A program made the translations under genes and the position numbers. The notes beneath the pieces are model-generated. The model had not been told where the DNA came from. It searched no databases and saw only the letters and a list, made by a program, of their open reading frames with translations. This document shows positions 1 through 34,088 of a stretch of 64,000 nucleotides of DNA, piece after piece. Source of the stretch: Micromonospora antibiotica. GTDB lineage: Bacteria > Actinomycetota > Actinomycetes > Mycobacteriales > Micromonosporaceae. The DNA is taken from assembly GCF_017599305.1 (NCBI RefSeq), contig NZ_JAGFWR010000014.1:1-64000 (forward strand), given 5' to 3'. How positions within the stretch are numbered: the stretch's first letter is position 1; every line of letters starts with the position of its first letter.

Positions 1-1
1 C

Positions 2-91
2 GAAGTCGCCCACGAACTCAACACCCGACCCCGCGAAACACTCGACTGGAACACACCAGCCCAACGCCTCGCACAACTCATCGTCCCCTAA
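2..91 (+). CDS. IS30-type transposase, C-terminal fragment (cut by window edge)
   Basis: The window opens inside a reading frame that ends at the TAA at 89-91. The 29 visible residues include NTRPRETLDWNTPAQRLAQL, which matches the C-terminal end of IS30-family DDE transposases (known form: LNxRPRKxLxWxTPAExL). The catalytic core lies outside the window, so it cannot be said whether the element is intact. The expected right inverted repeat should lie shortly after the stop, around 92-110, but it cannot be confirmed without the left end. Confidence 0.75.
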   Translation, partial: EVAHELNTRPRETLDWNTPAQRLAQLIVP

Positions 92-183
92 CGATTGCAC
101 TCACCCCTTGACCCCGCCCGCCCCATTCCGCCCCAAACTTCTTGATCACCGCCCCTCCGGTGCCGTCTCCCGGCGATGCCTCC

Positions 184-243
184 GGTGATCAAGAGGTTTG
201 CGTCATCTGCGGGCCTGAAATTGACGCGAAGCTCTTGATCACC
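184..243. repeat. Long imperfect palindrome with GGTGATCAAGAG arms
   Basis: Arms of 22 nt (184-205 and 222-243) pair with only two mismatches around a 16-nt loop. The outer arm sequence GGTGATCAAG also occurs inverted at 141-150. It lies in the non-coding stretch 92-345 between the IS30 fragment and the acetyltransferase. It could be a REP-like element or part of the insertion-element scar. No U-run follows, so a terminator is less likely. Confidence 0.7.
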
Positions 244-309
244 GGGGGCAGGGCGGGAGCGGAGCGGGCAGGGGGCGGGAGGAGGGCGGGACGGGGCGGG
301 CGGAGCGGC

Positions 310-345
310 GGGTGGGTGGTGGGGGGGTGGGGGGTGGGGGGTGGG
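310..345 (+). other. G-quadruplex-capable G-run
   Basis: The plus strand carries at least five runs of three to seven G separated by one to three bases. It ends directly at the stop codon of the minus-strand acetyltransferase, so the transcript of that gene would be C-rich here. Such a run could fold as a G-quadruplex in DNA. The wider stretch 243-355 is also strongly G-skewed and holds no credible gene. Confidence 0.5.
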
Positions 346-924
346 TCAGGGGTCGGTGGTGAGGCGGGCGTGGAGGTGTTCGTCGTGTCGGTGGCCGTCG
401 CCGTAGCGGTGGGATTCGCGCAGGGTCCCCTCCAGCCGGTATCCGGCCCGTGCGGCGACCCGGCAGGAGGCGGGGTTGCCCACGGCGTGACACAGCTCGA
501 TCCGGTGCAGGCCGAGCCGGGTGAAGGCCCAGTTGGTGAGCGCATCCAGCGCCCGGCCGGCGACCCCACGGCCCCGGGCCGGGGCGGAGGTCCAGTAGCC
601 GACGGCGGCGTTGCCGTCCCGGATCTGGTGTACGGAGACCGCACCGAGCAGCGTTCCGTCGGTGTCCCCGGTCACCGCGAGGGAGGCGTGGCTGCCGTCG
701 CTCCAGTCGGCGCGGCGGGCGATCCACGTGGCGGCCTGTGTCAGGTCGCCCACCCCCTGCCCGTTCCACCGGACGATCTCGGGGTCGACCAGGGCGGCCA
801 GCACGGCCGGTGCGTCCGCCGCCCGCCAGGGACGCAGCAGCAGGCCGGGGGCGGTGATCTCCACGGGTTCCACCACGGCAGTCTGCCAGCTCGCCGTGGT
901 CGGCGGCCCGCCCTTGTGGCTCAT
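346..924 (-). CDS. GNAT family N-acetyltransferase (RimJ/RimL-like)
   Basis: Predicted acetyl-CoA-dependent N-acetyltransferase of about 192 residues, cytoplasmic, substrate unknown. The N-terminal strand ITAPGLLLRPWRAADAPAVL is typical of the RimJ/RimL branch. The acetyl-CoA loop is visible as PARGRGVAGRALDALTNWAF, followed by the family's HRIEL and NPASCRVAARAGYRLEGTLR segments. The start is uncertain: ATG 924 has GAAGG directly abutting it, and an internal GTG near residue 17 is possible. It is divergent from the MarR gene and shares a 101-bp AT-rich intergenic region with it. The C-terminus is close to family length. Confidence 0.85.
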   Translation of the reverse strand: MSHKGGPPTTASWQTAVVEPVEITAPGLLLRPWRAADAPAVLAALVDPEIVRWNGQGVGDLTQAATWIARRADWSDGSHASLAVTGDTDGTLLGAVSVHQIRDGNAAVGYWTSAPARGRGVAGRALDALTNWAFTRLGLHRIELCHAVGNPASCRVAARAGYRLEGTLRESHRYGDGHRHDEHLHARLTTDP

Positions 925-1025
925 CCTTCGAATTCTGAAATTCCACCTCTCAAGCGATGGTGTCGCCCTGCTCACACGCATCACAGCAAGCTTGTTTAAA
1001 TTTGAAAGAGTGCTATTGTTCGGGC
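925..1025. promoter_or_regulatory. Divergent promoter region with palindromic MarR operator candidate
   Basis: This short AT-rich stretch separates the divergent acetyltransferase and MarR genes. At 995-1006 is TTTAAATTTGAA, a 12-bp near-palindrome of the size and composition bound by MarR dimers. It overlaps the likely promoter of the MarR gene (TTGAAA at 1003-1008, possible -10 TATTGT at 1014-1019). A second small dyad GAATT-N4-AATTC lies near 930-945. Autoregulation by the MarR protein is inferred from position only. Confidence 0.5.
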
Positions 1026-1508
1026 ATGACGGAGAGCCTGGACAGCGAGCGGATGGCTTGCTGGCGTGCCTACATCGAGGCCAGCCAGCGGCTGTTCACC
1101 CGGCTGGAGGATGACCTGCGTGCCGACGGGGAGCTGAGCTTCGCCGACTACCACGTGCTGGTCCTGCTCTCCGAGGCGCCGGGCCAGCGGCTCCGGATGG
1201 GTGAGCTGGCCGGCCGGCTGGTCTTCTCCCCCAGCCGGCTCACCTACCAGATCTCCACCATGCAGCGGCGGGGCCTGGTCTCCAGGCAGTCCTGCCCCGG
1301 GGACCGTCGGGGCAGTGAGGCGGTGCTCACCGCCGCCGGGTTGCTGACCCTGCGCGAGGCCGCGCCGGGGCACCTCGCCTCGGTCCGCCGGCACCTGATG
1401 GACGACCTCGACGACGCCGAGGTCACCACCCTGACCCGGGTCTTCGATCGGCTCGGCCGGCGGCTGCGCGCCGACCGGGACGCGTCGTCCACCCACCGCG
1501 ACACCTGA
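1026..1508 (+). CDS. MarR family transcriptional regulator
   Basis: A 160-residue winged-helix regulator. The wing-helix core is RLRMGELAGRLVFSPSRLTYQISTMQRRGLVSRQSCPGDRRGSEAVLTAAG, with the DRR wing motif typical of MarR. The ATG at 1026 is preferred over an upstream in-frame GTG because it removes an unstructured N-terminus that would cover the promoter. The pirin gene starts 11 bp downstream, so the two form an operon. MarR-pirin pairs are a recurrent arrangement in actinobacteria, often tied to oxidative or phenolic stress. The ligand here is unknown. Confidence 0.9.
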   Translation: MTESLDSERMACWRAYIEASQRLFTRLEDDLRADGELSFADYHVLVLLSEAPGQRLRMGELAGRLVFSPSRLTYQISTMQRRGLVSRQSCPGDRRGSEAVLTAAGLLTLREAAPGHLASVRRHLMDDLDDAEVTTLTRVFDRLGRRLRADRDASSTHRDT

Positions 1509-1519
1509 GGAGAGCCGAG

Positions 1520-2506
1520 ATGCCCGCGATCACCGTCGACGACGTCCTCGTCCTGCCCCGCCTGCCCCGGCTCGACGAGACCACCAGCTACCGGCCGGTC
1601 CGCCGGCTGACCACCGCCCCGAGCGGCTACGAGGGTGAGGGGTTCCCGGTCCGCCGGGCCTTCGCCGGGGTGCCGATGCAGGATCTCGACCCGTTCATCC
1701 ACCTCGACCAGATGGGCGAGGTGGACTACGCGCCGGGCGAGCCGAAGGGCACCCCGTGGCACCCGCACCGGGGCTTCGAGACGGTCACCTACATGATCGA
1801 CGGGATCATGGACCACCAGGACTCGCAGGGTGGTGGCGGCACCATCACCGACGGCGACACCCAGTGGATGACCGCCGGCAGCGGCCTGCTCCACATCGAG
1901 GCCCCACCGGAGCACCTGGTCGCCAGCGGTGGCCTCTTCCACGGCCTCCAGCTCTGGGTCAACCTGCCCCGGGTGGCCAAGATGATGCCGCCGCGCTACC
2001 AGGACATCCGGGGTCGGGAGGCGGCCCTGCTGACCACGCCGGACGGCGGGGCGCTGATCCGGATCATCGCCGGTGAGATCGCCGGGCACCAGGGGCCGGG
2101 GTCGACCCACACGCCGATCACCATCACCCACGTCACGCTGGAGCCCGGTGCCGAGTTGGACCTGCCCTGGCGGGCCGACTTCAACGCGCTGGTCTACGCG
2201 CTCTCCGGTCGCGGCACGGTCGGCACCGACCGGCGACCGTTGCAGGGCGGCCAGTTGGCCGTGCACGGTCCGGGCGACGCGCTGCGGGTGACCGCCGCCG
2301 GCAAGCAGGACGGCAACACCCCGGGCCTGGACCTCTACATCATGGGCGGAAAGCCCATCCGGGAGCCGGTGGCGCACTACGGGCCGTTCGTGATGAACAC
2401 CCGCGCCGAGCTGATGCAGGCCTTCGAGGACTTCCAGGCCGGCAAGCTGGGCGTCGTGCCCGCCCAGCGGCTGCCGCACACCGGCGGCCAGGGCGACCGG
2501 CCCTGA
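1520..2506 (+). CDS. Pirin family protein
   Basis: A 328-residue bicupin of the pirin family. The N-terminal cupin keeps the four metal ligands: two His in WHPHRGFE and the His and Glu of LLHIEAPPE, so it should bind Fe or Cu. The C-terminal cupin ends with GGKPIREPVAHYGPFVMNT, which is diagnostic for pirins. Some bacterial pirins have quercetin dioxygenase activity, others act as protein-binding regulators; the sequence does not decide. The ribosome site GAGGAG precedes ATG 1520 at good distance. It is the second gene of the MarR operon and is followed by a strong hairpin at 2543-2575. Confidence 0.92.
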   Translation: MPAITVDDVLVLPRLPRLDETTSYRPVRRLTTAPSGYEGEGFPVRRAFAGVPMQDLDPFIHLDQMGEVDYAPGEPKGTPWHPHRGFETVTYMIDGIMDHQDSQGGGGTITDGDTQWMTAGSGLLHIEAPPEHLVASGGLFHGLQLWVNLPRVAKMMPPRYQDIRGREAALLTTPDGGALIRIIAGEIAGHQGPGSTHTPITITHVTLEPGAELDLPWRADFNALVYALSGRGTVGTDRRPLQGGQLAVHGPGDALRVTAAGKQDGNTPGLDLYIMGGKPIREPVAHYGPFVMNTRAELMQAFEDFQAGKLGVVPAQRLPHTGGQGDRP

Positions 2507-2542
2507 CCGGGCGTACGCCGGCCTGGAGCCGGTGACCCGTCC

Positions 2543-2575
2543 ACGGGCGTCCCGGGACCATCCCGGGGCGCCCGT
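2543..2575 (+). terminator. Rho-independent-like terminator after pirin
   Basis: Fifteen-base arms with one G-U pair (ACGGGCGTCCCGGGA and its partner) enclose a 3-nt loop and run into TTTCGG. It lies 37 bp after the pirin stop. Short T-tails are usual for terminators in this GC range. Confidence 0.65.
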
Positions 2576-2673
2576 TTCGGGCGCGGTGAACGACGCGAAG
2601 GGGAGTCCCCGTGCGCCGAGGTGTCCGTTCCGGTGGACCGGGGCGGGCGGTGGTGGCAGGTGGGTGGCGGCCG

Positions 2674-2802
2674 TCAGGAGACCGCGAAGATCCCGGCCAC
2701 CCCGAGAATCACCATGAGCAGCACCGCCAGGATCGCGCCGCGTTCGCTCTCGACCGCCTGCGTACGGTCCTCGGTCGCGGAATTCGTCGTCTCGGCGGGC
2801 AT
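2674..2802 (-). CDS. Small single-pass membrane protein (42 aa), unknown function
   Basis: A 42-codon gene. Residues 1-22 are polar and acidic, starting MPAETTNSATEDRTQAVESE. Residues 23-42 form one hydrophobic helix (GAILAVLLMVILGVAGIFAV), so the protein is likely a single-pass inner-membrane peptide with a cytoplasmic N-terminus. The strongest evidence that it is real is the ribosome site GAGGAGG seven bases before the ATG. It is divergent from the phospholipase D gene, with about 135 bp between them. No family was recognised. Confidence 0.7.
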   Translation of the reverse strand: MPAETTNSATEDRTQAVESERGAILAVLLMVILGVAGIFAVS

Positions 2803-2937
2803 TGCGGTGCCTCCTCGGCGTTCGCGGCTCTACGGGGTGCGGTAGGCCACCGTCCGGGCATCTGTCGTGCCACCCGGAATGCGCATTCGCGGCGGGGGTC
2901 CTACCGTGAGGACGTCGTCGACCTCGGGAGGTGGAGC

Positions 2938-4527
2938 GTGGCGATCGAGGACTGGTTCCTGACCGCTGAGGAACGCGCCAACCCGGTGTCGGGGATACCC
3001 GTCTGGACGACCGGAAACCTCGCCGAGCCACTGATTCACGGTGCGGCGTACTTCGACCGCCTGGTCAGCGCGGTGGAGGCCCTCGGCGCGGGTGACCACC
3101 TCTTCTTCACCGACTGGCGGGGCGACCCGGACGAACGGATGCGCCCGGACGGCCCGACGGTGGCCCAGCTCTTCGCGCAGGCCGCCCAACGTGGCGTGGT
3201 GGTCAAGGGGCTGCTCTGGCGCTCCCACCTCGACGCGCTGTCCTACAGCGAGGTGGAGAACCGGGACCTGAGCGAGACGGTCAACGCCGCCGGCGGTGAG
3301 GTGCTGCTCGACCAGCGGGTGAGGCGGGGCGGGTCGCACCACCAGAAGCTGGTGGTGCTGCGCCACCCCGACGCGCCGGAACGGGACGTCGCCTTCGCCG
3401 GCGGGATCGACCTGTGCCACAGCCGCCGCGACGACGCCGACCACCACGGCGACCCGCAGCCGTTGGCCATGTCACCCCGGTACGGCCCGCGCCCGCCCTG
3501 GCACGACGTGCAGCTCGCCGTCCGGGGGCCGGTGGTCGGTGCGTTGGACACCACGTTCCGCGAGCGGTGGACCGACCCGATGCCGTTGGACTCGGAGAAC
3601 CCGCTGGCCTACCTGCGGGACCGGCTGCGCGGCTCCGACCTCCGCCCCGACCCGCTGCCCGCCCAGCCGGCCGACCCGCCGCCCTGCGGCCCGCACCGCA
3701 TCCAGGTGCTGCGCACCTATCCGGCGGTCCGCCCCCGCTACGCGTTCGCCCCGGACGGCGAGCGCACGGTGGCCCGCGGCTACACCAAGGCGGTACGCCG
3801 GGCCCGCCGGCTGATCTACCTGGAGGACCAGTACCTCTGGTCGACCGAGGTGGCGGAGCTGTTCGCCGAGGCGCTGCGGGCCAATCCGGACCTGCACCTG
3901 GTCGCCGTGGTGCCGCGTCATCCGGACGTCGACGGCGCGTTGGCGCTGCCGCCGAACATGGTGGGTCGGGAGCAGGCGTTGTCGCTGTGTGAGCGGGCCG
4001 CCCCGGAGCGGGTGCACGTCTTCGACGTGGAGAACCGGGCGGGCGAGCCGGTCTACGTGCACGCCAAGATCTGCGTGGTCGACGACGTCTGGGCGAGCGT
4101 GGGCAGCGACAACTTCAACCGCCGGTCCTGGACCCACGACAGCGAGCTGTCCTGCGCGGTGCTCGACGACACCCGCGACCCGAGGGCCCCCGCCGACCCG
4201 GCGGGTCAGGGTGACGGTGCCCGGGTGTTCGCCCGGGACCTGCGGCTGCGGTTGTGGCGTGAGCACCTGGACCGCGATCCGGACGGGGCCGACGACGCCG
4301 ACCTGCTGGATCCGGCCGACGCGGTGGCGGCGATCACCTCGACCGCCAACGCCCTGCAACGGTGGTACGACACCGGTCGGCAGGGTCCCCGGCCACCGGG
4401 CCGGTTGCGTCCGCACCGGCCCGAGCGGTTGCCCTGGTACACCCGGCTCTGGGCGTTGCCGGCCTACCGGCTGGTCTACGACCCCGACGGCAGGCCGCTG
4501 CACGCCCGGCGCAAGGGCACCTGGTGA
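2938..4527 (+). CDS. Phospholipase D-like family protein
   Basis: A 529-residue protein with two HKD motifs, as in phospholipase D: SHHQKLVVLR (His135, Lys137) and YVHAKICVVDD (His375, Lys377, Asp382) followed by GSDNFNRRSW. In the family the two histidines form one active site that cleaves or transfers phosphodiesters. No signal peptide is visible, so it is probably cytoplasmic, unlike secreted Streptomyces PLDs. GTG 2938 is chosen because GGGAGGTG stands six bases ahead; the open frame extends much further upstream without support and would cover the small membrane gene. The 3' end overlaps the convergent ADC-like gene by 52 bp. Confidence 0.88.
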   Translation: MAIEDWFLTAEERANPVSGIPVWTTGNLAEPLIHGAAYFDRLVSAVEALGAGDHLFFTDWRGDPDERMRPDGPTVAQLFAQAAQRGVVVKGLLWRSHLDALSYSEVENRDLSETVNAAGGEVLLDQRVRRGGSHHQKLVVLRHPDAPERDVAFAGGIDLCHSRRDDADHHGDPQPLAMSPRYGPRPPWHDVQLAVRGPVVGALDTTFRERWTDPMPLDSENPLAYLRDRLRGSDLRPDPLPAQPADPPPCGPHRIQVLRTYPAVRPRYAFAPDGERTVARGYTKAVRRARRLIYLEDQYLWSTEVAELFAEALRANPDLHLVAVVPRHPDVDGALALPPNMVGREQALSLCERAAPERVHVFDVENRAGEPVYVHAKICVVDDVWASVGSDNFNRRSWTHDSELSCAVLDDTRDPRAPADPAGQGDGARVFARDLRLRLWREHLDRDPDGADDADLLDPADAVAAITSTANALQRWYDTGRQGPRPPGRLRPHRPERLPWYTRLWALPAYRLVYDPDGRPLHARRKGTW

Positions 4528-28626: not shown

Positions 28627-28748
28627 CCCCCACGCCGCCAGGATCGGCGGTGCGGGGAGCCCGCGGCGGGCGGGGTCGGTGACCACGCCGGCGGGCTGCC
28701 CGGCGGGGCTGCCCGGCGGGGCGGGCCGGGATGCGGCAGGCTGGGCAC

Positions 28749-29543
28749 ATGCGCCTGGCGACCTGGAACGTGAACTCGGTGAAGGCCCGCCTCCCCCGGC
28801 TGCTGGACTGGCTGGCCGGCACCGCCCCCGACGTGGTCTGCCTCCAGGAGACCAAGTGCCCGGACGGGGCGTTCCCGGTCGCCGAGGTCGGTGAGCTGGG
28901 CTACGAGGTGGCCAGCCACAGCGACGGCCGGTGGAACGGGGTGGCGATCCTGTCCCGCGTCGGCCTGACCGACGTCACCGTCGGCTTCCCCGGCGAACCG
29001 GGCTTCCCGCAACCTGAGGCCCGCGCCATCTCCGCCACCTGCGCCGGGGTCCGGATCTGGTCGGTGTACGTCCCGAACGGCCGGGCGGTCGACGACCCGC
29101 ACTACGCCTACAAGCTGGCCTGGTTCGCGGCGCTGCGGGACGCCCTGGAACCGGAGGTGGCCGCCGGTCGGCCGGTCGCCGTCTGCGGGGACTTCAACGT
29201 CGCCCCGACCGACGCCGACGTCTGGGACCCGGCGCTCTTCGCCACCTCCACGCATGTCACCCCCGCCGAGCGGGCCGCCCTGGCCGCCCTGCGCGACCTC
29301 GGACTCAGCGACGTGGTGCCCACCCCGATGAAAGGCCCGCACCCGTACACCTACTGGGACTACCGGGCCGGCATGTTCCACCAGAACAAGGGCATGCGCA
29401 TCGACCTGGTGTACGCCTCCGCGCCGCTGGCCACGACGGTCCGCGCCGCGTACGTGGACCGGGAGGCCCGCAAGGGCAAAGGCCCCTCCGACCACGCCCC
29501 GATCGTGGTCGACACCGACCCACCGGCTGTCGACACACCCTGA
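28749..29543 (+). CDS. xth: Exodeoxyribonuclease III (AP endonuclease)
   Basis: A 264-residue ExoIII-family DNA repair enzyme. Key motifs: TWNVNSVKARLPRLLDWL (Asn), CLQETKC (metal-binding Glu), YVPNGR (Tyr), GDFNVAPTDADV (Asp/Asn pair), RIDLVYAS and SDHAPIV (catalytic Asp-His). It cleaves at abasic sites and removes nucleotides from 3' ends in base-excision repair. ATG 28749 is the only start that keeps the N-terminal strand; no ribosome site is obvious. Monocistronic. Confidence 0.94.
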   Translation: MRLATWNVNSVKARLPRLLDWLAGTAPDVVCLQETKCPDGAFPVAEVGELGYEVASHSDGRWNGVAILSRVGLTDVTVGFPGEPGFPQPEARAISATCAGVRIWSVYVPNGRAVDDPHYAYKLAWFAALRDALEPEVAAGRPVAVCGDFNVAPTDADVWDPALFATSTHVTPAERAALAALRDLGLSDVVPTPMKGPHPYTYWDYRAGMFHQNKGMRIDLVYASAPLATTVRAAYVDREARKGKGPSDHAPIVVDTDPPAVDTP

Positions 29544-29603
29544 CCCGCCCCGGGACAACGCCGCCAACGGGTCCGGCCCCTGCCCTGCGGGGGCGTCACC
29601 TCC

Positions 29604-29746
29604 TATCGGGGATGCGCCGCCGCCTGTCGCGGGTGCCCTATCGCCGGACGCCCCCACACTTGTCGCGGAAGGGGTGGCCGTCCCTGCAGTTCGGGTATCG
29701 CGGGGGTCCCCGGCCTTACCGCAGGGGTGCCCCTGTCTATCGGGGG
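29604..29746. repeat. Irregular cluster of TATCGCGGG-like motifs
   Basis: Seven variants of TATCGCGGG begin at 29604, 29625, 29639, 29661, 29696, 29717 and 29738, separated by 14-35 bp; the last overlaps the stop of the DUF397 gene. The spacing is too uneven for a simple tandem repeat. It may be a decayed repeat or a set of binding sites. Confidence 0.45.
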
Positions 29747-29934
29747 TGGGATGTCTTGGCGCGGTCGACGAAGCCACGCCACGCTCCCGGCGTGAACATC
29801 AGCGTCCCCCCGTCGCGGTCCTTCGTGTCCCGCACCAGCACGATGCCGGGCAGGTTGTCCGCCACCTCGACACACGCCCCACCGTTGTTGCCGCTCCTGG
29901 TGCTCTTGCGCCACCGCGCACCGGTCACGTCCAT
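29737..29934 (-). CDS. DUF397 small protein
   Basis: A 65-residue DUF397 protein: WRKSTRSGNNGGACVEVADN, then VLVRDTKDRDGGTLMFTPGAWRGFVD. All family hallmarks are kept, so the gene appears intact. It starts inside the end of a truncated XRE/DUF5753 reading frame (overlap 29925-29934), the usual coupling for this pair, but the regulator itself is broken. It may therefore be an orphan, or rely on another regulator. GGAAGGTGG lies upstream with somewhat long spacing. Confidence 0.88.
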   Translation of the reverse strand: MDVTGARWRKSTRSGNNGGACVEVADNLPGIVLVRDTKDRDGGTLMFTPGAWRGFVDRAKTSHPR

Positions 29935-30107
29935 ATCGCCGCCACCTTCCGAATAAGATCCAGGGACTGGGCCCGGGGCAGGGCCTCCCCCACTATGCGC
30001 GCCCACCGCTGCTCCAAGGTAGCGATATCCTGACGCTGGTCGATGATCTGCGCCCGCACCTGCCCGTCCACATGCGCCACCCGCGTCCCGCTGCCGACAT
30101 CAGCCCA
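29925..30107 (-). pseudogene. Truncated XRE/DUF5753 regulator, C-terminal remnant
   Basis: On the minus strand a 60-codon frame ends RWARIVGEALPRAQSLDLIRKV-AAIWT. This matches the C-terminus of DUF5753 regulators (compare ALDPAASLARLEEAARHFA at 10546) and overlaps the DUF397 start as in complete pairs. Upstream, an in-frame TGA at 30108-30110 closes the frame and the sequence passes into the 3' end of the next gene. So the helix-turn-helix and most of DUF5753 are missing. It looks like the scar of an insertion or deletion. Confidence 0.65.
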
Positions 30108-30145
30108 TCACCTGCGGACCGACACCGCCAGCCTCACAGTCAGCC

Positions 30146-30877
30146 TTACTCGGCCGCCGCGTCGGCCCACAGTGCGTCAAAGTGCTCGAGGTACCTGCTG
30201 AACGGCCCGCCGGTCTCCCGTCGGCGAAAATGAAGCGTGACGGAGTCCTGGCCCAGTGCGCCGCCGATATGGGTGGCGACGATGGCGTCGTTGTCGAACA
30301 CCCACACCGACATCCCGACATGCCGGTCGGACAGCCGGACGGCCAACGGTGTGGCCGACTTGCTGATCTCGGCTCGTGTCATGGCGATCCGCGTAGCGAG
30401 GTTGAGCGGCGTCGCCTCGATCCGGTCCCGGCTGGTGGTGACCGGGCTCGCCGGATCACCCAGCAGGAAACGTACGTCCGCGCCGGCCTGGGCTTTCGCG
30501 CCGATGGTCTCGGCGGCGTTCGGCACTTCCAGCCAGACGAAATAGCTGGTGTAGCCACCGAACAGGAGGCGGGACCGAGCCCCCTCGATCAACTCTCGGA
30601 AGAGCGTTCGGGGCAGTTCGGAGCGACGTGCGTAGACGCCCACCAACTCACGGTCGGCACCCAACTTGACCGCGCGACGCACAGCTTCAGGCCACAGCAC
30701 GTCCACATCCTTACCCAGAACGCTGGCCACCCGCACACGCGAGCGCGGATGCGGCAGTCGCCCCCGGCTGACCCACCGTTCCACCGTCTTCGCATCGACA
30801 TCGCACTTCTCAGCGAGCTGGCTGACCGTCAGCCCGGCAGTAGTCAGCGCCTCCCGCAGGAAGTCGTTTCTCGGCAC
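30146..30877 (-). CDS. XRE family regulator with DUF5919 domain
   Basis: A 243-residue protein. Residues 1-65 form a helix-turn-helix (FLREALTTAGLTVSQLAEKCDVDAKTVERWVSRGRLPHPRSRVRVASVLG). Residues 80-240 match DUF5919: VYARRSELPRTLFRELIEGARSRLLFGGYTSYF, ADVRFLLGDPAS, VGMSVWVFDNDAIVATHIGG, ending FSRYLEHFDALWAD. DUF5919 recalls a PLD-like fold without clear HKD residues. Such regulators recur in actinobacteria beside small gene clusters. GTG 30877 has AGGAAAGG upstream. It is divergent from the three overlapping small genes, which it may control (inference). Confidence 0.82.
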   Translation of the reverse strand: MPRNDFLREALTTAGLTVSQLAEKCDVDAKTVERWVSRGRLPHPRSRVRVASVLGKDVDVLWPEAVRRAVKLGADRELVGVYARRSELPRTLFRELIEGARSRLLFGGYTSYFVWLEVPNAAETIGAKAQAGADVRFLLGDPASPVTTSRDRIEATPLNLATRIAMTRAEISKSATPLAVRLSDRHVGMSVWVFDNDAIVATHIGGALGQDSVTLHFRRRETGGPFSRYLEHFDALWADAAAE

Positions 30878-31008
30878 GGGGGGGGACCTTTCCTAGACGT
30901 CCCTCGATGGTCGCATACGGGCGGTTAATTCGTCCGTCACTCGCTGCAAAGGTTCGTAGCAGAGCGACGCCGCCGGTCTGGGTGAGATCCCACCGGTCGC
31001 GTCTGCCC

Positions 31009-31046
31009 GAGGGGCCGCCCGGTAGGAGGGGACCGGACGGCCCCTC
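31009..31046 (+). promoter_or_regulatory. Leader hairpin upstream of the small-gene trio
   Basis: GAGGGGCCG-CCCGGT pairs with ACCGG-A-CGGCCCCTC around the loop AGGAGGGG. It sits 30 bp before the first start codon of the trio, in its leader. The loop carries a Shine-Dalgarno-like AGGAGG that is too far from ATG 31077 to be the ribosome site. It may be an attenuator or a regulator site. Confidence 0.4.
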
Positions 31047-31076
31047 CTCCACAACCAACGGACATAAGGGACCGCC

Positions 31077-31268
31077 ATGCCTGAGGAGCAGCCGAGACAG
31101 CCCACGCCCGCACCGGGCCCGCCCTTTCCACCGCCCCCACCACCCGCGCGCCCGATCGTCCCCGGGCCGATCGGACCGTTCGTCCCGCTCTACCGGGGGC
31201 CGGGCCGGATCACCTGCATCGTGCCAGGGCACCGCTGGACGGGCGGGCGGAACCGGGGTCCACAGTGA
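31077..31268 (+). CDS. Proline-rich small protein (63 aa), unknown function
   Basis: A 63-residue protein, Pro-rich in its first 35 residues (MPEEQPRQPTPAPGPPFPPP), ending with a more ordinary segment PLYRGPGRITCIVPGHRWTGG. No membrane helix. AAGGGA stands before ATG 31077. It is supported mainly by the four-base GTGA overlap of its stop with the next start. First of three coupled genes divergent from the XRE/DUF5919 regulator. Confidence 0.6.
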   Translation: MPEEQPRQPTPAPGPPFPPPPPPARPIVPGPIGPFVPLYRGPGRITCIVPGHRWTGGRNRGPQ

Positions 31269-31609
31269 GGGGGACGGCGGTCGGGGCCGGCGACCTGCTG
31301 CACCTGACCAGGGAGGCGAGCGTGCAGTTCAGCCGGCCGATCACGGTCCGGGTCATCCGGGTGCTGACGGACTGGCACACGTACGACGGGTGGGTGTGGA
31401 TCGACGCATATCAACTGGATGCCGGCGGCGACGCGGTGCGGCGGCGGACCCTGTTCCTGATGCCGGCGGGTGCCCGCCGGCCCACCCCGCAGCCGGGGCG
31501 ATCCGCCGGCCGGCCGGGGGCGGCCGGGGCGCAGCGCGGGGCGGCGACTGCAGCGCGCGGCACCCGGCCAGGCGCGGCACCGGCACGCCGGTCGGCGGTG
31601 GCGCGGTGA
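31265..31609 (+). CDS. Hypothetical protein with compact N-terminal beta domain (114 aa)
   Basis: Residues 1-70 look folded and strand-rich: GDLLHLTREASVQFSRPITVRVIRVLTDWHTYDGWVWIDAYQLDAGGDAVRRRTLFLMP. Residues 75-114 are an Ala/Arg/Gly-rich, probably disordered basic tail, which could touch nucleic acid. No family recognised. Both ends overlap neighbours by four bases (GTGA), so translation is coupled along the trio. Confidence 0.7.
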   Translation: MRGTAVGAGDLLHLTREASVQFSRPITVRVIRVLTDWHTYDGWVWIDAYQLDAGGDAVRRRTLFLMPAGARRPTPQPGRSAGRPGAAGAQRGAATAARGTRPGAAPARRSAVAR

Positions 31610-31860
31610 CCGCACCGCTGCCTGGTCCACACACGCCGGTACGCCCGCTCTGGCTGTGCCGGGTCGACGCGCGGCCCTGGCCGTGCGGCGAGGCGAAACT
31701 CGCGCTCCTCACGAGGTACGACGGCGACCGGCCGGGCTTGTTGATCCTGCTCTCCCGGTTGTCGGTGGAGGCGAGCACCCACCTGACGCAGCTCGACAGC
31801 GGTCGCCGAGCCGACCTGACCAACCGCTTCCTGCGCTGGGCATACCCGCCCGACGGCTGA
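31606..31860 (+). CDS. Small WxC-WPC protein (84 aa)
   Basis: An 84-residue protein. The core LWLCRVDARPWPCGEAKLALLTRY resembles small actinobacterial proteins (often mislabelled flavin reductase) that carry WxCxxCxxxWPC; here the middle Cys is Asp or Ala, so a zinc knuckle would be incomplete. The C-terminal half LLILLSRLSVEASTHLTQLDSGRRADLTNRFLRWAY is helical. Homologues tend to sit beside XRE regulators, as here. Function unknown. GTG 31606 overlaps the previous stop. Confidence 0.72.
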   Translation: MTAPLPGPHTPVRPLWLCRVDARPWPCGEAKLALLTRYDGDRPGLLILLSRLSVEASTHLTQLDSGRRADLTNRFLRWAYPPDG

Positions 31861-32001
31861 CCTTCCGCACCGGACGCACTGCACCCCGGCTACCCTGCCG
31901 GCGGCTGCCCGCTCCCCGCCTGCGGAGATCAAGATCGGAACAGGTCGGCGAGGGCGGGCGGCGCGGCCGGGGACGGCCGGGCACGACCCGAAGGGGCAGG
32001 C

Positions 32002-32057
32002 AGCTGATTGTGGAGATTTATTGCGCCCCTGGCGACAAGAACTCTCCACAATCAGCT
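32002..32057. repeat. Long palindrome with AGCTGATTGTGGAGA arms
   Basis: Perfect 15-nt outer arms (32002-32016 and 32043-32057) continue inward as an imperfect stem (TTATTGCGCC with GGCGACAAGAA), giving about 26-nt arms around a very short loop. It is AT-richer than its surroundings and lies 140 bp after the small-gene trio. It might terminate that trio, but the length and composition suggest a mobile palindromic repeat. Confidence 0.7.
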
Positions 32058-32092
32058 CGGCGCGCTCGCCTCGATCCCCACCCACCGCATCC

Positions 32093-32190
32093 CGCACCGC
32101 ACCGCTGCCCGCCCCGCACCGCACCGCACTGCTGCCCGCTCCGCACCACAGCGCACCGCACCGCACTGCTGCCCGCCCCGCGCCACAGCG
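32093..32190. repeat. Degenerate CACCGCACCGCACTGCTGCC repeats
   Basis: Three to four irregular copies of a unit around CGCACCGCACCGCACTGCTG plus CCCGC, 22-37 bp long. It fills the non-coding gap before the ABM monooxygenase gene. No reading frame here is credible. Confidence 0.6.
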
Positions 32191-32288
32191 CCTCGCACCG
32201 CACGGCGGCATCGCGCGGGCGCACCGGCCGGTCAGGGGCTCGGGCGCAGGGACAGGGGCGGGCGCAGGGGCAGGGATAGGGTGGTGGG

Positions 32289-32606
32289 ATGGCAGTCGTG
32301 AAGATCAACGCGATCGACGTCCCGCCGGGTGCCGGCGAGGAGTTGGAGAAGCGGTTCGCCGCTCGGGCCGGCGCGGTGGAGAACTCCCCCGGTTTCCTCG
32401 GCTTCGAGCTGCTGCGCCCGGTCGCCGGGGAGAGCCGCTACTTCGTCTACACCCGGTGGGAGACGGAGGAGGCGTACCAGGCATGGGTCGCCGGGTCGTC
32501 CCGGGCCGCACATGCCGGCGAGGGCGGCGAGCAGCGGCGGCCGGTCGCCTCCGGCGCGACGCTGCTGGAGTTCGAGGTGGTCCAGCAGGTGACCGGCAAG
32601 GGCTGA
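32289..32606 (+). CDS. ABM-domain monooxygenase (HmoA-like)
   Basis: A 105-residue antibiotic-biosynthesis-monooxygenase fold protein. Pattern: VVKINAIDVPPGAGEELEKRFAARAGAVENSPGFLGFELLRPVAG, RYFVYTRWETEEAYQAWVAG and a C-terminal LLEFEVVQQV strand. The Asn of VENSPGF and the following W are positions that matter in heme-degrading members (HmoA, MhuD), so heme breakdown is possible, though many homologues are of other or unknown function. It stands alone, convergent with the LanC-like gene. Confidence 0.85.
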   Translation: MAVVKINAIDVPPGAGEELEKRFAARAGAVENSPGFLGFELLRPVAGESRYFVYTRWETEEAYQAWVAGSSRAAHAGEGGEQRRPVASGATLLEFEVVQQVTGKG

Positions 32607-32643: not shown

Positions 32644-33921
32644 TCAGATCCAGGGCAGGACGGGGGCGGTGGCGGGAGCGGCCAGCCGGGCGAGCCAGCC
32701 GGCGATCCCGGCGGCACCCTGCATGAAGCCGGGCTCCGGCGGCAGCTGCGGCGGGGTCCTGGTGTGCTCGGTGTTCGACCAGGTGACGCCCGCCGGGGTG
32801 GACACGGTACGGGCGAGGACGTCCTCGGCGAGCGTGTCGGCCCAGGTGAGCAGGGCGGGGTCGCCGGCATCCTGGAAGCGGTCGACCAGCATCTGCCCGA
32901 CCCCGGCGGTGCCACAGCAGCGGGCGAGATTGTCCCAGTACCCCGGGTAGAGCCGCTGCGGGAGACGGCTGTCGCGCAGCGCCCCCAGGCATTCCTCGAC
33001 GGCCAGCCGCCAGCGGGGCTGCGGGTCGACGGCGTCGAGGAGGGCGAAGAGTCGTACCGTGCCGGTCGGGCCGTGGCACCAGCCGAAGGTGACCGCCGGA
33101 CGGTCCGGGCGGGACGGAACCAGCAGCGGCAGCGCCCACCCGCCGGGGCGGCGCCCCAGGGCCAGCAGTCCGTCGGCGGCGCGCACGGCGATGTCGCGCA
33201 GATCGTCGCGACGCAGGGAGTCGCCGGCTGTGGCCAGGACGTAGGCGACGCCGGCCGTGCCGTGGGAGAAGCCGGGCATGAGGCGCTCGTCGCCCGCCCG
33301 CATCCGCCAGTGCAGCCCATCGGGCCGGTCCTCGGCCAGCCCCACCAGCCCGTCGGCCAGGACGTTGGCCGCCTGCGCCACCACCGGATCGGCATCCTCG
33401 TCGAGGGCGTCGAGGAGGGCCAGCAGGATGCCGGCGTCGCCGGAGATGACATCGGAACACCGGCCCGGGTCCACCGGACGGCGCAGCAGCCGCTCGGCCA
33501 TCCGTACCGTCACCGACGCGGCGGTGTCGAGGGCCACCCGGTCGCCGGAGACCCGGCCCCAGGCGCGCAACGCGACCGCCACCCCGGCCCAGCCGCCGAA
33601 CAGCCCGTCGTCGGGCATCGTCGCGGCGTCCGGCTCGTGCCGGGCAAGATGCACCAGCCGACCCCGGGCCCCGGCCGCGACCCGGCCGAGCGCCGACCCC
33701 GCTGCGGTGACGACGCCGCCGTCGGTCGTGGTGACGACGGGCCCATCGGCCGGGTGGCGGCCGGTGGCCGTGGCCTCGGCGCAGCCGAGCAGCACCCCGG
33801 CGGTCCCGGCATAGAGGTCGTCGAAGCGTTCACCCGCCTCCTGCCACCCCAGACCACCCTCGGCGGGCACCGCCACCGACTCGATCCACCTGAACGCCTG
33901 CCGCACCACGTCCGCCGTCAC
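32644..33921 (-). CDS. Stand-alone lanthionine synthetase C-like protein
   Basis: A 425-residue LanC-like (alpha,alpha-barrel) protein. Motifs in order: LYAGTAGVLLG near the start, FSHGTAGV (about 218-225), GWCHGPTG (Cys282) and CCGTAG (Cys335, Cys336), ending with FMQGAAGIAGWLA. The usual CHG zinc motif is CCG, so zinc would be held by three cysteines, as in the promiscuous cyclase ProcM. LanC enzymes add cysteine thiols to dehydrated Ser/Thr in lanthipeptides. No dehydratase or precursor was seen nearby, so the substrate is unknown. GTG 33921 is chosen over the longer frame because AGGA lies ahead. Confidence 0.85.
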   Translation of the reverse strand: MTADVVRQAFRWIESVAVPAEGGLGWQEAGERFDDLYAGTAGVLLGCAEATATGRHPADGPVVTTTDGGVVTAAGSALGRVAAGARGRLVHLARHEPDAATMPDDGLFGGWAGVAVALRAWGRVSGDRVALDTAASVTVRMAERLLRRPVDPGRCSDVISGDAGILLALLDALDEDADPVVAQAANVLADGLVGLAEDRPDGLHWRMRAGDERLMPGFSHGTAGVAYVLATAGDSLRRDDLRDIAVRAADGLLALGRRPGGWALPLLVPSRPDRPAVTFGWCHGPTGTVRLFALLDAVDPQPRWRLAVEECLGALRDSRLPQRLYPGYWDNLARCCGTAGVGQMLVDRFQDAGDPALLTWADTLAEDVLARTVSTPAGVTWSNTEHTRTPPQLPPEPGFMQGAAGIAGWLARLAAPATAPVLPWI

Positions 33922-33985
33922 CGCGCCGATCCTGCCACCGCCGCCCGACGGCGTCCCCGCAATATCGGGCGCACACCCCGGCCAC

Positions 33986-34088
33986 GACCGGTCAGGGTGG
34001 GCGGTCCCGGCCATGACCCGGTCAGGACGGGCTCGGCCCCGGTCGAGACCGGTCAGGGTTGGGCGGTCCCGGCCGTGACCCGGTCAGG
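33986..34088. repeat. 41-bp direct repeat, two copies 61 bp apart
   Basis: GACCGGTCAGGGTGGGCGGT plus CCCGGCCATGACCCGGTCAGG occurs at 33986-34026 and, with a one-base insertion and one change, at 34047-34088. It lies upstream of the LanC-like gene and downstream of the sortase. A further GGTCAGGGTGAGCGGG doublet overlaps the sortase stop. No gene is visible between 33922 and 34137. Confidence 0.7.

Follow-up and report, generated by a model that had tools for sequence, protein, structure and literature searches.

The closest described systems to the locus considered here, which lies in a 64,000-nucleotide stretch of the Micromonospora antibiotica genome (contig NZ_JAGFWR010000014.1, positions 1 to 64,000; hereafter the window), are the WhiJ/BldB-type loci. 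These form a greatly expanded family of regulatory loci in mycelial actinobacteria, few of whose outputs have an assigned role. In the Streptomyces venezuelae iosA-whiJ9-bldB9 locus, one of many paralogous loci, a small-protein gene lies beside the genes of an XRE regulator and a DUF397/BldB protein. At this locus the direct repeats in the iosA-whiJ9 intergenic region are bound by WhiJ9, which is required for the ~750-fold rise of iosA on loss of BldB; excess IosA from iosA overexpression impairs sporulation, and BldB, for which no DNA binding was seen there, interacts with BldB9 in a two-hybrid test (PMC10294661). The whiJ/abaA clusters, composed of whiJ-like, DUF397-type and anti-sigma-like genes, are accessory and have many paralogues per genome, and a review raises them as possible developmental brakes (PMC4255298). 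XRE-DUF397 has also been predicted to be a type II toxin-antitoxin pair (PMC2701414), whereas another study treats fourteen such pairs as regulators of antibiotic production and differentiation (PMC10364602).

The window locus is situated between an xth-type gene and an ABM-domain gene. It is probably an accessory WhiJ/BldB-type module whose regulator was replaced by recombination, and in which the new regulator, together with an RNA leader, would control three small open reading frames (ORF1, ORF2 and ORF3, the trio) as a brake on growth or development. The features are given below; G and L numbers denote genomes and loci, E is the expectation value of a match, and HTH stands for helix-turn-helix.

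28749-29543, + strand: xth-type exodeoxyribonuclease III, Pfam Exo_endo_phos (scanned as 28731-29540); left flank of the site
29737-29934, - strand: complete DUF397 (BldB-like) gene whose cognate regulator is gone; PF04149, E 2.7e-22, all 55 columns
29925-30091, - strand: remnant of an XRE/DUF5753 regulator gene, last ~54 codons; PF19054 columns 132-178 of 178
30091-30152, no strand: left recombination junction interval; identity to G008 and M. matsumotoense stops abruptly, DUF5919-type similarity runs from ~30153
30146-30877, - strand: replacement regulator, HTH plus DUF5919-like (PLD-like) C-terminal domain
30878-30958, no strand: putative divergent promoter/operator that arrived with the replacement regulator; start near-identical in L101, L102, L103 and L107
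30959-31056, + strand: structured leader RNA of the trio operon, with hairpins at 30964-31006 (1) and 31010-31045 (2)
31077-31268, + strand: ORF1, Pro-rich peptide with the conserved tail PIVPGPIGPF.PPYRGPGR...RW (alignment A1); 4 own-genome copies
31265-31609, + strand: ORF2, predicted SH3-like small beta barrel with a basic tail (alignments A3 and A5; AlphaFold; VIA)
31606-31860, + strand: ORF3, WxC..WPC protein with a Cys/His N-terminus and three helices (alignments A2 and A6; AlphaFold)
32008-32051, no strand: 44-bp inverted repeat downstream of the operon, a possible bidirectional terminator
32289-32606, + strand: ABM-domain gene, PF03992, E 5.1e-20; right flank of the site

The complete DUF397 gene lies downstream of the regulator remnant and overlaps it, as in WhiJ/BldB-type loci, and ORF1-3 occupy the place of the divergent target. 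A DUF5753 regulator, of which ~54 codons are left in the window, is present in G008 and M. matsumotoense. As in the iosA locus, the presumed output includes a small basic protein: IosA has 15 kDa and an isoelectric point (pI) of 10.3 (PMC10294661), and ORF2 has 12.1 kDa and a pI of 11.9. Binding of the intergenic region, reported for WhiJ9 (PMC10294661), would be the corresponding activity of the window regulator. The window differs further in that its target is a three-gene operon, the ORF2 relatives of which are all from Micromonosporaceae among the best 80 of 231 loci, in that this operon has a structured leader whereas the iosA message is described as leaderless (PMC10294661), and in that the XRE/DUF5753 regulator has been replaced by a DUF5919-type one, leaving DUF397 an orphan. 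Regulator and DUF397 families are shared with the abaA cluster, but ORF1-3, which fill the target slot, have no HATPase_c or anti-sigma-like Pfam match at E up to 1. The proposed toxin-antitoxin pair likewise consists of a DUF397 gene and an upstream HTH regulator; in the window this pair is broken.

A mosaic of two allele types

A search for the two flanking genes covered 151 genomes of the genus, that of the window among them. In 139 of these both genes share a contig and a strand, and these 139 were scored; of the other 12, ten have no ABM gene, G010 has no xth, and G114 is split over contigs. The statements made here on the site rest on this census of the xth-ABM gap. The gap measures at most 150 bp in 115 of the 139 genomes, with a median of 44 bp, and exceeds 1 kb in ten, seven of which contain the module (the window, G008, G012, M. 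matsumotoense (G061), M. wenchangensis (G073), G155 and G167). No module gene was detected in the remaining three (G066, G150, G170), nor in the four examined (G083, G100, G131, G161) of the 14 genomes with a gap of 150 bp to 1 kb. The module is thus an accessory one, which only a few species of Micromonospora carry between xth and ABM.

The alleles at this site are of two types. Those of G008 and M. matsumotoense contain an intact 255-aa XRE/DUF5753 regulator, DUF397, ORF1 and ORF2, all beside an ORF3 broken by a deletion at about the same place in both; in G008 the ORF2 frame continues out of frame into the residue of ORF3. The G012 allele has undergone an apparent inversion and a deletion, which joined the first 34 codons of ORF3, in frame, to the DUF5753 domain and left the remainder of ORF3 on the opposite strand (the chimera is found at L039 2542-3234 and L068 1146-1838). 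G155 and G167 have a DUF5753-type regulator, DUF397 and ORF3 beside further genes, with ORF1 and ORF2 not detected. The M. wenchangensis allele (L101) consists of a DUF5919-type regulator, ORF2 and ORF3; DUF397 and ORF1 were not detected. The older form in the clade is an XRE/DUF5753 regulator with DUF397, divergent from an ORF1-ORF2-ORF3 operon.

By alignment, the window is a mosaic of these two types. The frame at 29925-30089 on the - strand, which overlaps the start of DUF397, matches DUF5753 only in its last 47 columns (132-178 of 178, E 1e-6). Over 54 codons it has 98% amino acid identity to the intact G008 regulator of the same site, and this identity ends at ~30091. At the DNA level, window 29733-30090 is 89.1% identical to G008. 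The adjoining segment, 30155-30968, which comprises the regulator and the ~80 bp upstream of it, is 86.1% identical to the M. wenchangensis allele, and over 30960-31513 the identity is again with G008, at 87.6%. The stretch that runs from ORF1 through the ORF2 core has 88.4% identity with G008 and 82.9% with M. matsumotoense L165, both of the DUF5753 type, compared to 73.0% with the DUF5919-type locus L102; for the ORF2 core alone the values are 91.9% (G008), 84.7% (M. wenchangensis L101) and 80.1% (L102). Because ORF1-ORF2, the part of the trio on which the comparison is based, follow the DUF5753-type alleles, it was the regulator that was exchanged and not the trio. A simple loss of most of the DUF5753 gene is ruled out, because it would not account for a regulator segment that belongs to another type of allele.

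The left junction is sharp, at ~30091. The right junction falls at the start of the RNA leader, in a stretch common to G008 and L165 (DUF5753 type) and to L102 (DUF5919 type), although L101 has no leader. A stretch shared by both allele types could have supplied the homology for the crossover. The start of the intergenic region in DUF5753-type loci differs from the one brought in with the replacement regulator. A second scar is present in G003 (L129), where a DUF5753 tail and DUF397 lie beside broken DUF5919-type remains, which suggests that regulator turnover is recurrent.

The initial annotation had described the locus as remodelled, with a complete DUF397 gene, a truncation scar, and a regulator divergent from three small genes, and all of this holds. 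Both overlaps, ORF1/ORF2 and ORF2/ORF3, are indeed GTGA. The scar had been put at 60 codons, a length now corrected to ~54, and the label XRE/DUF5919 for the regulator is right but weak. It applies to the family, of which 15 of 19 scanned members match DUF5919 (best E 5.7e-4) and 3 of 19 match PLDc_2, but the window protein itself does not match DUF5919 (PF19319) at E up to 10. Its only matches in Pfam (none at the curated cut-off) and NCBIfam are of the HTH type. Sequence profiles of the Protein Data Bank (PDB) likewise gave a credible match in the HTH only. PADLOC returned five weak matches, the best, 6.7e-5, in the HTH and one to DrmC (0.008) in the C-terminal part. The regulator also matches phage-repressor families (phrog_3, 2.4e-11), and DUF397 matches a phage-protein family of unknown function (phrog_10815, 1.3e-18). 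The regulator has 87% and 86% amino acid identity to L101 and L102, at ratios of nonsynonymous to synonymous substitution rates (dN/dS) of 0.14 and 0.11; for DUF397 the ratio is 0.33 against G008 and 0.25 against G012.

The DUF5919-type loci examined are the best 30 matches, window included. In 14 of the 29 others ORF2 and/or ORF3 are divergent from the regulator, and only one of the 14 has DUF397 within 1.5 kb. A subgroup (L112, L115, L119, L120, L122) adjoins an XRE-type regulator gene in place of ORF2/ORF3, and in all of these except L112 a small membrane-type CxRCG gene is found beside that regulator. An own-genome copy of the ORF3 family (L026 4999-5250) adjoins the same small CxRCG gene and the same type of XRE regulator (L026 5470-6824).

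In M. matsumotoense a further copy, of the DUF5919 type and with ORF1-2-3, is located 32 kb from xth. Its flank matches window 182-3230, where the window contig begins. A copy of this kind in the own genome would be a conceivable donor of the regulator, but an own-genome search found no second close copy of the window regulator, the sole other full-length match being a 37% paralogue. The own-genome counterpart of the M. matsumotoense second copy may sit in an assembly gap (window 1-3230; L164, L252).

The RNA leader of the trio operon

The leader, a stretch of ~98 nt that lies upstream of ORF1, is predicted to form two GC-rich hairpins. In a MAFFT alignment of 10 sequences, 10 of the 25 pairs of the predicted consensus fold keep pairing through two-sided changes. 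A covariance model built from these 10 sequences was used to find further copies. Its search listed 63 rows, of which 44 were scored (E up to ~0.2, the window row left out), 35 of them outside the training set. All but three of the 35 (L027, L196 and L198 are misplaced) lie on the coding strand, 24-337 bp upstream of an ORF1, ORF2 or ORF3 match, and the 32 include loci of both regulator types. Two of the matches, L102 and L071, coincide with the M. matsumotoense stretches of the training loci L164 and L162; without them 30 of 33 are correctly placed.

The conservation of pairing was measured in two further alignments. A10 contains 39 matches fitted to the model, from 40 sources hand-picked among loci with correctly placed matches, and therefore leans to the structure; in it 93.5% of the cells pair, and 23 of the 25 pairs show two-sided changes. 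The covariation score of A10 is 0.495, compared to at most 0.220 when slid, and none of 500 shuffles reaches 0.495. A11, for which MAFFT aligned 38 of these matches without L071, is free of fitting though not of selection; it gave 19 predicted pairs, 11 with two-sided changes. The earlier alignment A7 had contained rows L076, L077, L079 and L084, which A8 and A9 do not have. As judged from these alignments, the pairing of the leader is conserved. G-U pairs number 97 and A-C mismatches 8 over 710 cells; thus an RNA of the coding strand fits better than a DNA palindrome, which is disfavoured.

The leader goes with ORF3. When the training loci are left out, the first model finds a correctly placed leader in 11 of 24 loci with ORF3 and in none of 51 without it, among the best 80 of 231 ORF2 loci (p 5e-7). 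A second model, R2, trained on many of these loci, finds it in 21 of 28 with ORF3 and 2 of 52 without (p 2e-11), and the two exceptions (L165, L175) carry ORF3 remnants; one R2 match below 0.01 (L027) is misplaced. In the own genome R2 located six places at E up to 1, all at ORF3-family loci. This search scored 150 of 19,183 candidates and, as all six matches are training sequences, shows only that no further place was found.

A search of window 29500-32400 against Rfam 15 gave no family at E up to 1, and the open-licence papers searched contain no description of the leader, which is apparently undescribed. It resembles known structured leaders of Rfam 15 in its covarying pairs and in having hairpins placed in cis upstream of one gene family, but it is a conserved RNA element outside all Rfam models and the most novel part of the locus. 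Tentatively, with the case somewhat short of even, it may represent a new cis-regulatory RNA family of Micromonospora, perhaps of its family, that is tied to ORF3 operons and would provide a second layer of control staying with the operon through exchanges of transcription factor. Such a leader might be read by ORF2, as a basic Tudor/KOW-like barrel, or by a small molecule.

The three small proteins and their combinations

None of ORF1, ORF2 and ORF3 matches a Pfam or NCBIfam family at E up to 1. In the own genome there are 18 copies of ORF3, 13 of ORF2 and four of ORF1, and all three occur together at four places (the window, L011, L012 and L013). In the same genome ORF3 copies are divergent from an XRE-type gene followed by DUF397 at L014, L015, L017, L018, L021 and L024. 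Thirty of the 65 ORF1 matches were examined as loci, window included, the others being from congeners. ORF1-2-3 are together in 15 of the 30 (with a partial ORF3 in L073), and ORF1 and ORF3 occur without ORF2 in 13. The initial annotation had taken the trio for a unit, and it is a real one found elsewhere: the own-genome copies and the joint occurrence in 15 of 30 loci argue against chance. Divergent from ORF1 is a DUF5753-DUF397 pair in 27 loci, a DUF5919-type regulator in one, the window hybrid in one and nothing in one. The best 80 of 231 ORF2 loci, which are from named genomes, agree: 68 have a divergent DUF5753 gene with DUF397 and two a DUF5919-type gene without DUF397 (together 70 with a divergent regulator), and in ten no divergent regulator was detected.

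The trio is one of several combinations of small genes. Other small Cys-rich proteins precede ORF2 at loci that lack ORF1/ORF3 (L028 4228-4431, L032 4197-4376, L033 3767-3991); these belong to a wider set of exchangeable small genes.

AlphaFold predicts residues 11-70 of ORF2 in blocks at a predicted local distance difference test score (pLDDT) of 80-95, followed by a basic tail of low confidence. The predicted barrel has four main strands (residues 11-14, 26-34, 44-51 and 57-65). The top rows of the VIA comparison are mostly SH3-like, with a best Z of 6.0 and a root-mean-square deviation of 2.8 over 67 residues, where a Z under 8 can mean a common arrangement. Similarity to Tudor, chromo, PWWP and KOW-type barrels is weak and rather uniform. 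Foldseek gave no match at E up to 1e-3, Pfam found nothing credible on members of the ORF2 family, and neither ORF2 nor ORF3 was credibly matched by a sequence profile of the PDB. ORF3 is predicted at a mean pLDDT of 89.9, with an N-terminal Cys/His stretch and three helices; a fold search returned no PDB match, which does not show a new fold. Most paralogues have an invariant His and three Cys (C..C.....C) in this stretch, and the second Cys is Asp in the trio subtype. zf_DPOE_2 matches 13 of 29 ORF3 members very weakly (best 0.021). Metal binding by ORF3 is a guess.

Proposed working and competing explanations

The most likely function of the module, by analogy with the Streptomyces loci, is that of a regulator-controlled developmental or stress brake. 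In the lineage of the window, as the sequence shows, recombination with the other allele type swapped the XRE/DUF5753 gene and the divergent promoter for the HTH/DUF5919-like regulator, leaving the DUF5753 tail and the orphan DUF397 behind, with the right crossover at the start of a leader compatible with both types. The new regulator would bind the ~80 bp between the divergent genes and control both itself and the trio, and the two hairpins at the start of the trio mRNA would add a second layer of control. All three small proteins would work within the cell, perhaps in concert, and their induction would brake growth or development, as that of iosA does under WhiJ9. The orphan DUF397 may have kept an action in trans, on other copies of XRE/DUF5753. 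As DUF5919-type regulators mostly lack DUF397 (13 of the 14 loci with ORF2 or ORF3), the exchange would free the trio from DUF397 control and place it under a PLD-like sensor domain. A regulator that changes while the output operon is kept tells which part is the payload, and suggests that a given output can be run by interchangeable heads, namely transcription factors that differ in sensor domain (DUF5753, beside DUF397, or DUF5919-like, mostly with no DUF397).

Several observations count against this proposal. A sample of 246 genomes of the class gave ORF2 and ORF3 in three, each a member of this genus, and no match outside it. The best 80 of 231 ORF2 loci are from Micromonospora, Salinispora, Catellatospora, Rhizocola, Catelliglobosispora and Hamadaea; Micromonospora belongs to Micromonosporaceae, as do the other five. 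Because of this confinement the link to Streptomyces iosA is positional only. The dN/dS of ORF1-3 against relatives and paralogues, 0.30-0.75, is not low throughout. As to the donor, the synonymous substitution rate (dS) between the window and M. wenchangensis is 0.476 for the regulator compared to 0.18-0.20 for two neighbouring genes. Thus the regulator did not simply descend with its neighbours, M. wenchangensis as sampled finds no support as the direct donor, and the actual donor lies outside the sampled genomes. With matches taken at E up to 1, the leader was not found in five of the 14 DUF5919-type loci with ORF2/ORF3 (L101, L105, L109, L111, L114), in the ORF1 loci L077, L079, L084 and L089 or in L012. 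R2 finds it at 8 of the 18 own-genome ORF3 loci (seven below 0.001, one at 0.37). Single-sequence folds are moderately better than shuffled, with mixed z-scores of -1.2 to -3.6, and the minimum-energy fold of L165 differs from the consensus.

It is unlikely that the locus is a toxin-antitoxin or other conflict system whose trio holds a toxin silenced by the divergent regulator and whose copies spread selfishly. The module is patchy and multicopy, with small overlapping genes of no known family, XRE-DUF397 has been predicted to be such a pair (PMC2701414), and, among the five DUF5753-type alleles at the site, two have a broken ORF3 and a third has a split one. The other two, however, G155 and G167, keep their ORF3 match, and the fourteen pairs already mentioned were studied as regulators of antibiotic production and differentiation (PMC10364602). 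DUF397 and ORF1-3 match no PADLOC family at E up to 0.1, ORF2 and ORF3 have no plasmid match, and ORF3 has no phage match. Pfam finds no integrase or transposase catalytic family in the module proteins, although the regulator HTH weakly matches transposase HTH models. A defence or conflict role, raised by the initial annotation, thus gains no support from these searches, and neither does a plasmid or phage origin of the trio, whereas the developmental role raised beside it is plausible by analogy.

A decaying relic of successive insertions and rearrangements, devoid of present function, is improbable. The truncated DUF5753 gene, the deletions and apparent inversion in sister alleles, and a site that is empty or nearly so in 115 of 139 genomes would suit it. 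In the window, however, ORF1-3, the regulator and DUF397 are all intact and start-stop coupled, the regulator has a dN/dS of 0.11-0.14, and the pairing of the leader is conserved.

The initial annotation had proposed an exchanged accessory module. Accessory it is, but that the trio was the part brought in is very improbable: the trio does co-occur with a DUF5919-type regulator elsewhere (L102, L106, L111), so that its proteins are not merely scattered, yet the stretch from ORF1 to the ORF2 core is nearer to G008 and L165 than to L102, and it is these DUF5753-type alleles that the DUF5753 tail and DUF397 match as well; in G008 and M. matsumotoense the intact regulator is present beside the same ORF1/ORF2. 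The trio as the exchanged part is ruled out on this ground. An assembly chimera is scarcely credible, because, although the assembly is a draft of 66 contigs (7.56 Mb) and the contig start adjoins the position of the M. matsumotoense second copy, both joints lie within one contig, 30 kb from its start, the regulator of that second copy differs by ~17% from that of the window, and, apart from the 37% paralogue, the own genome has no further full-length match to the regulator.

Two minor features adjoin the module. The 44-bp inverted repeat (TTGTGGAGA...TCTCCACAA) occurs near several module copies (window 32008-32051, L022 6636-6679, L162 4836-4879, L072 2409-2452), while a variant of it follows the M. 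wenchangensis copy on its downstream side (L251); the repeat is perhaps a bidirectional terminator or a small repeat. A LanC-like gene at 32644-34014 (- strand) adjoins ABM; it was not called at this place in G012 (L068) but is present in G008 and M. matsumotoense (L069, L165), and is perhaps a second accessory gene beside the module.

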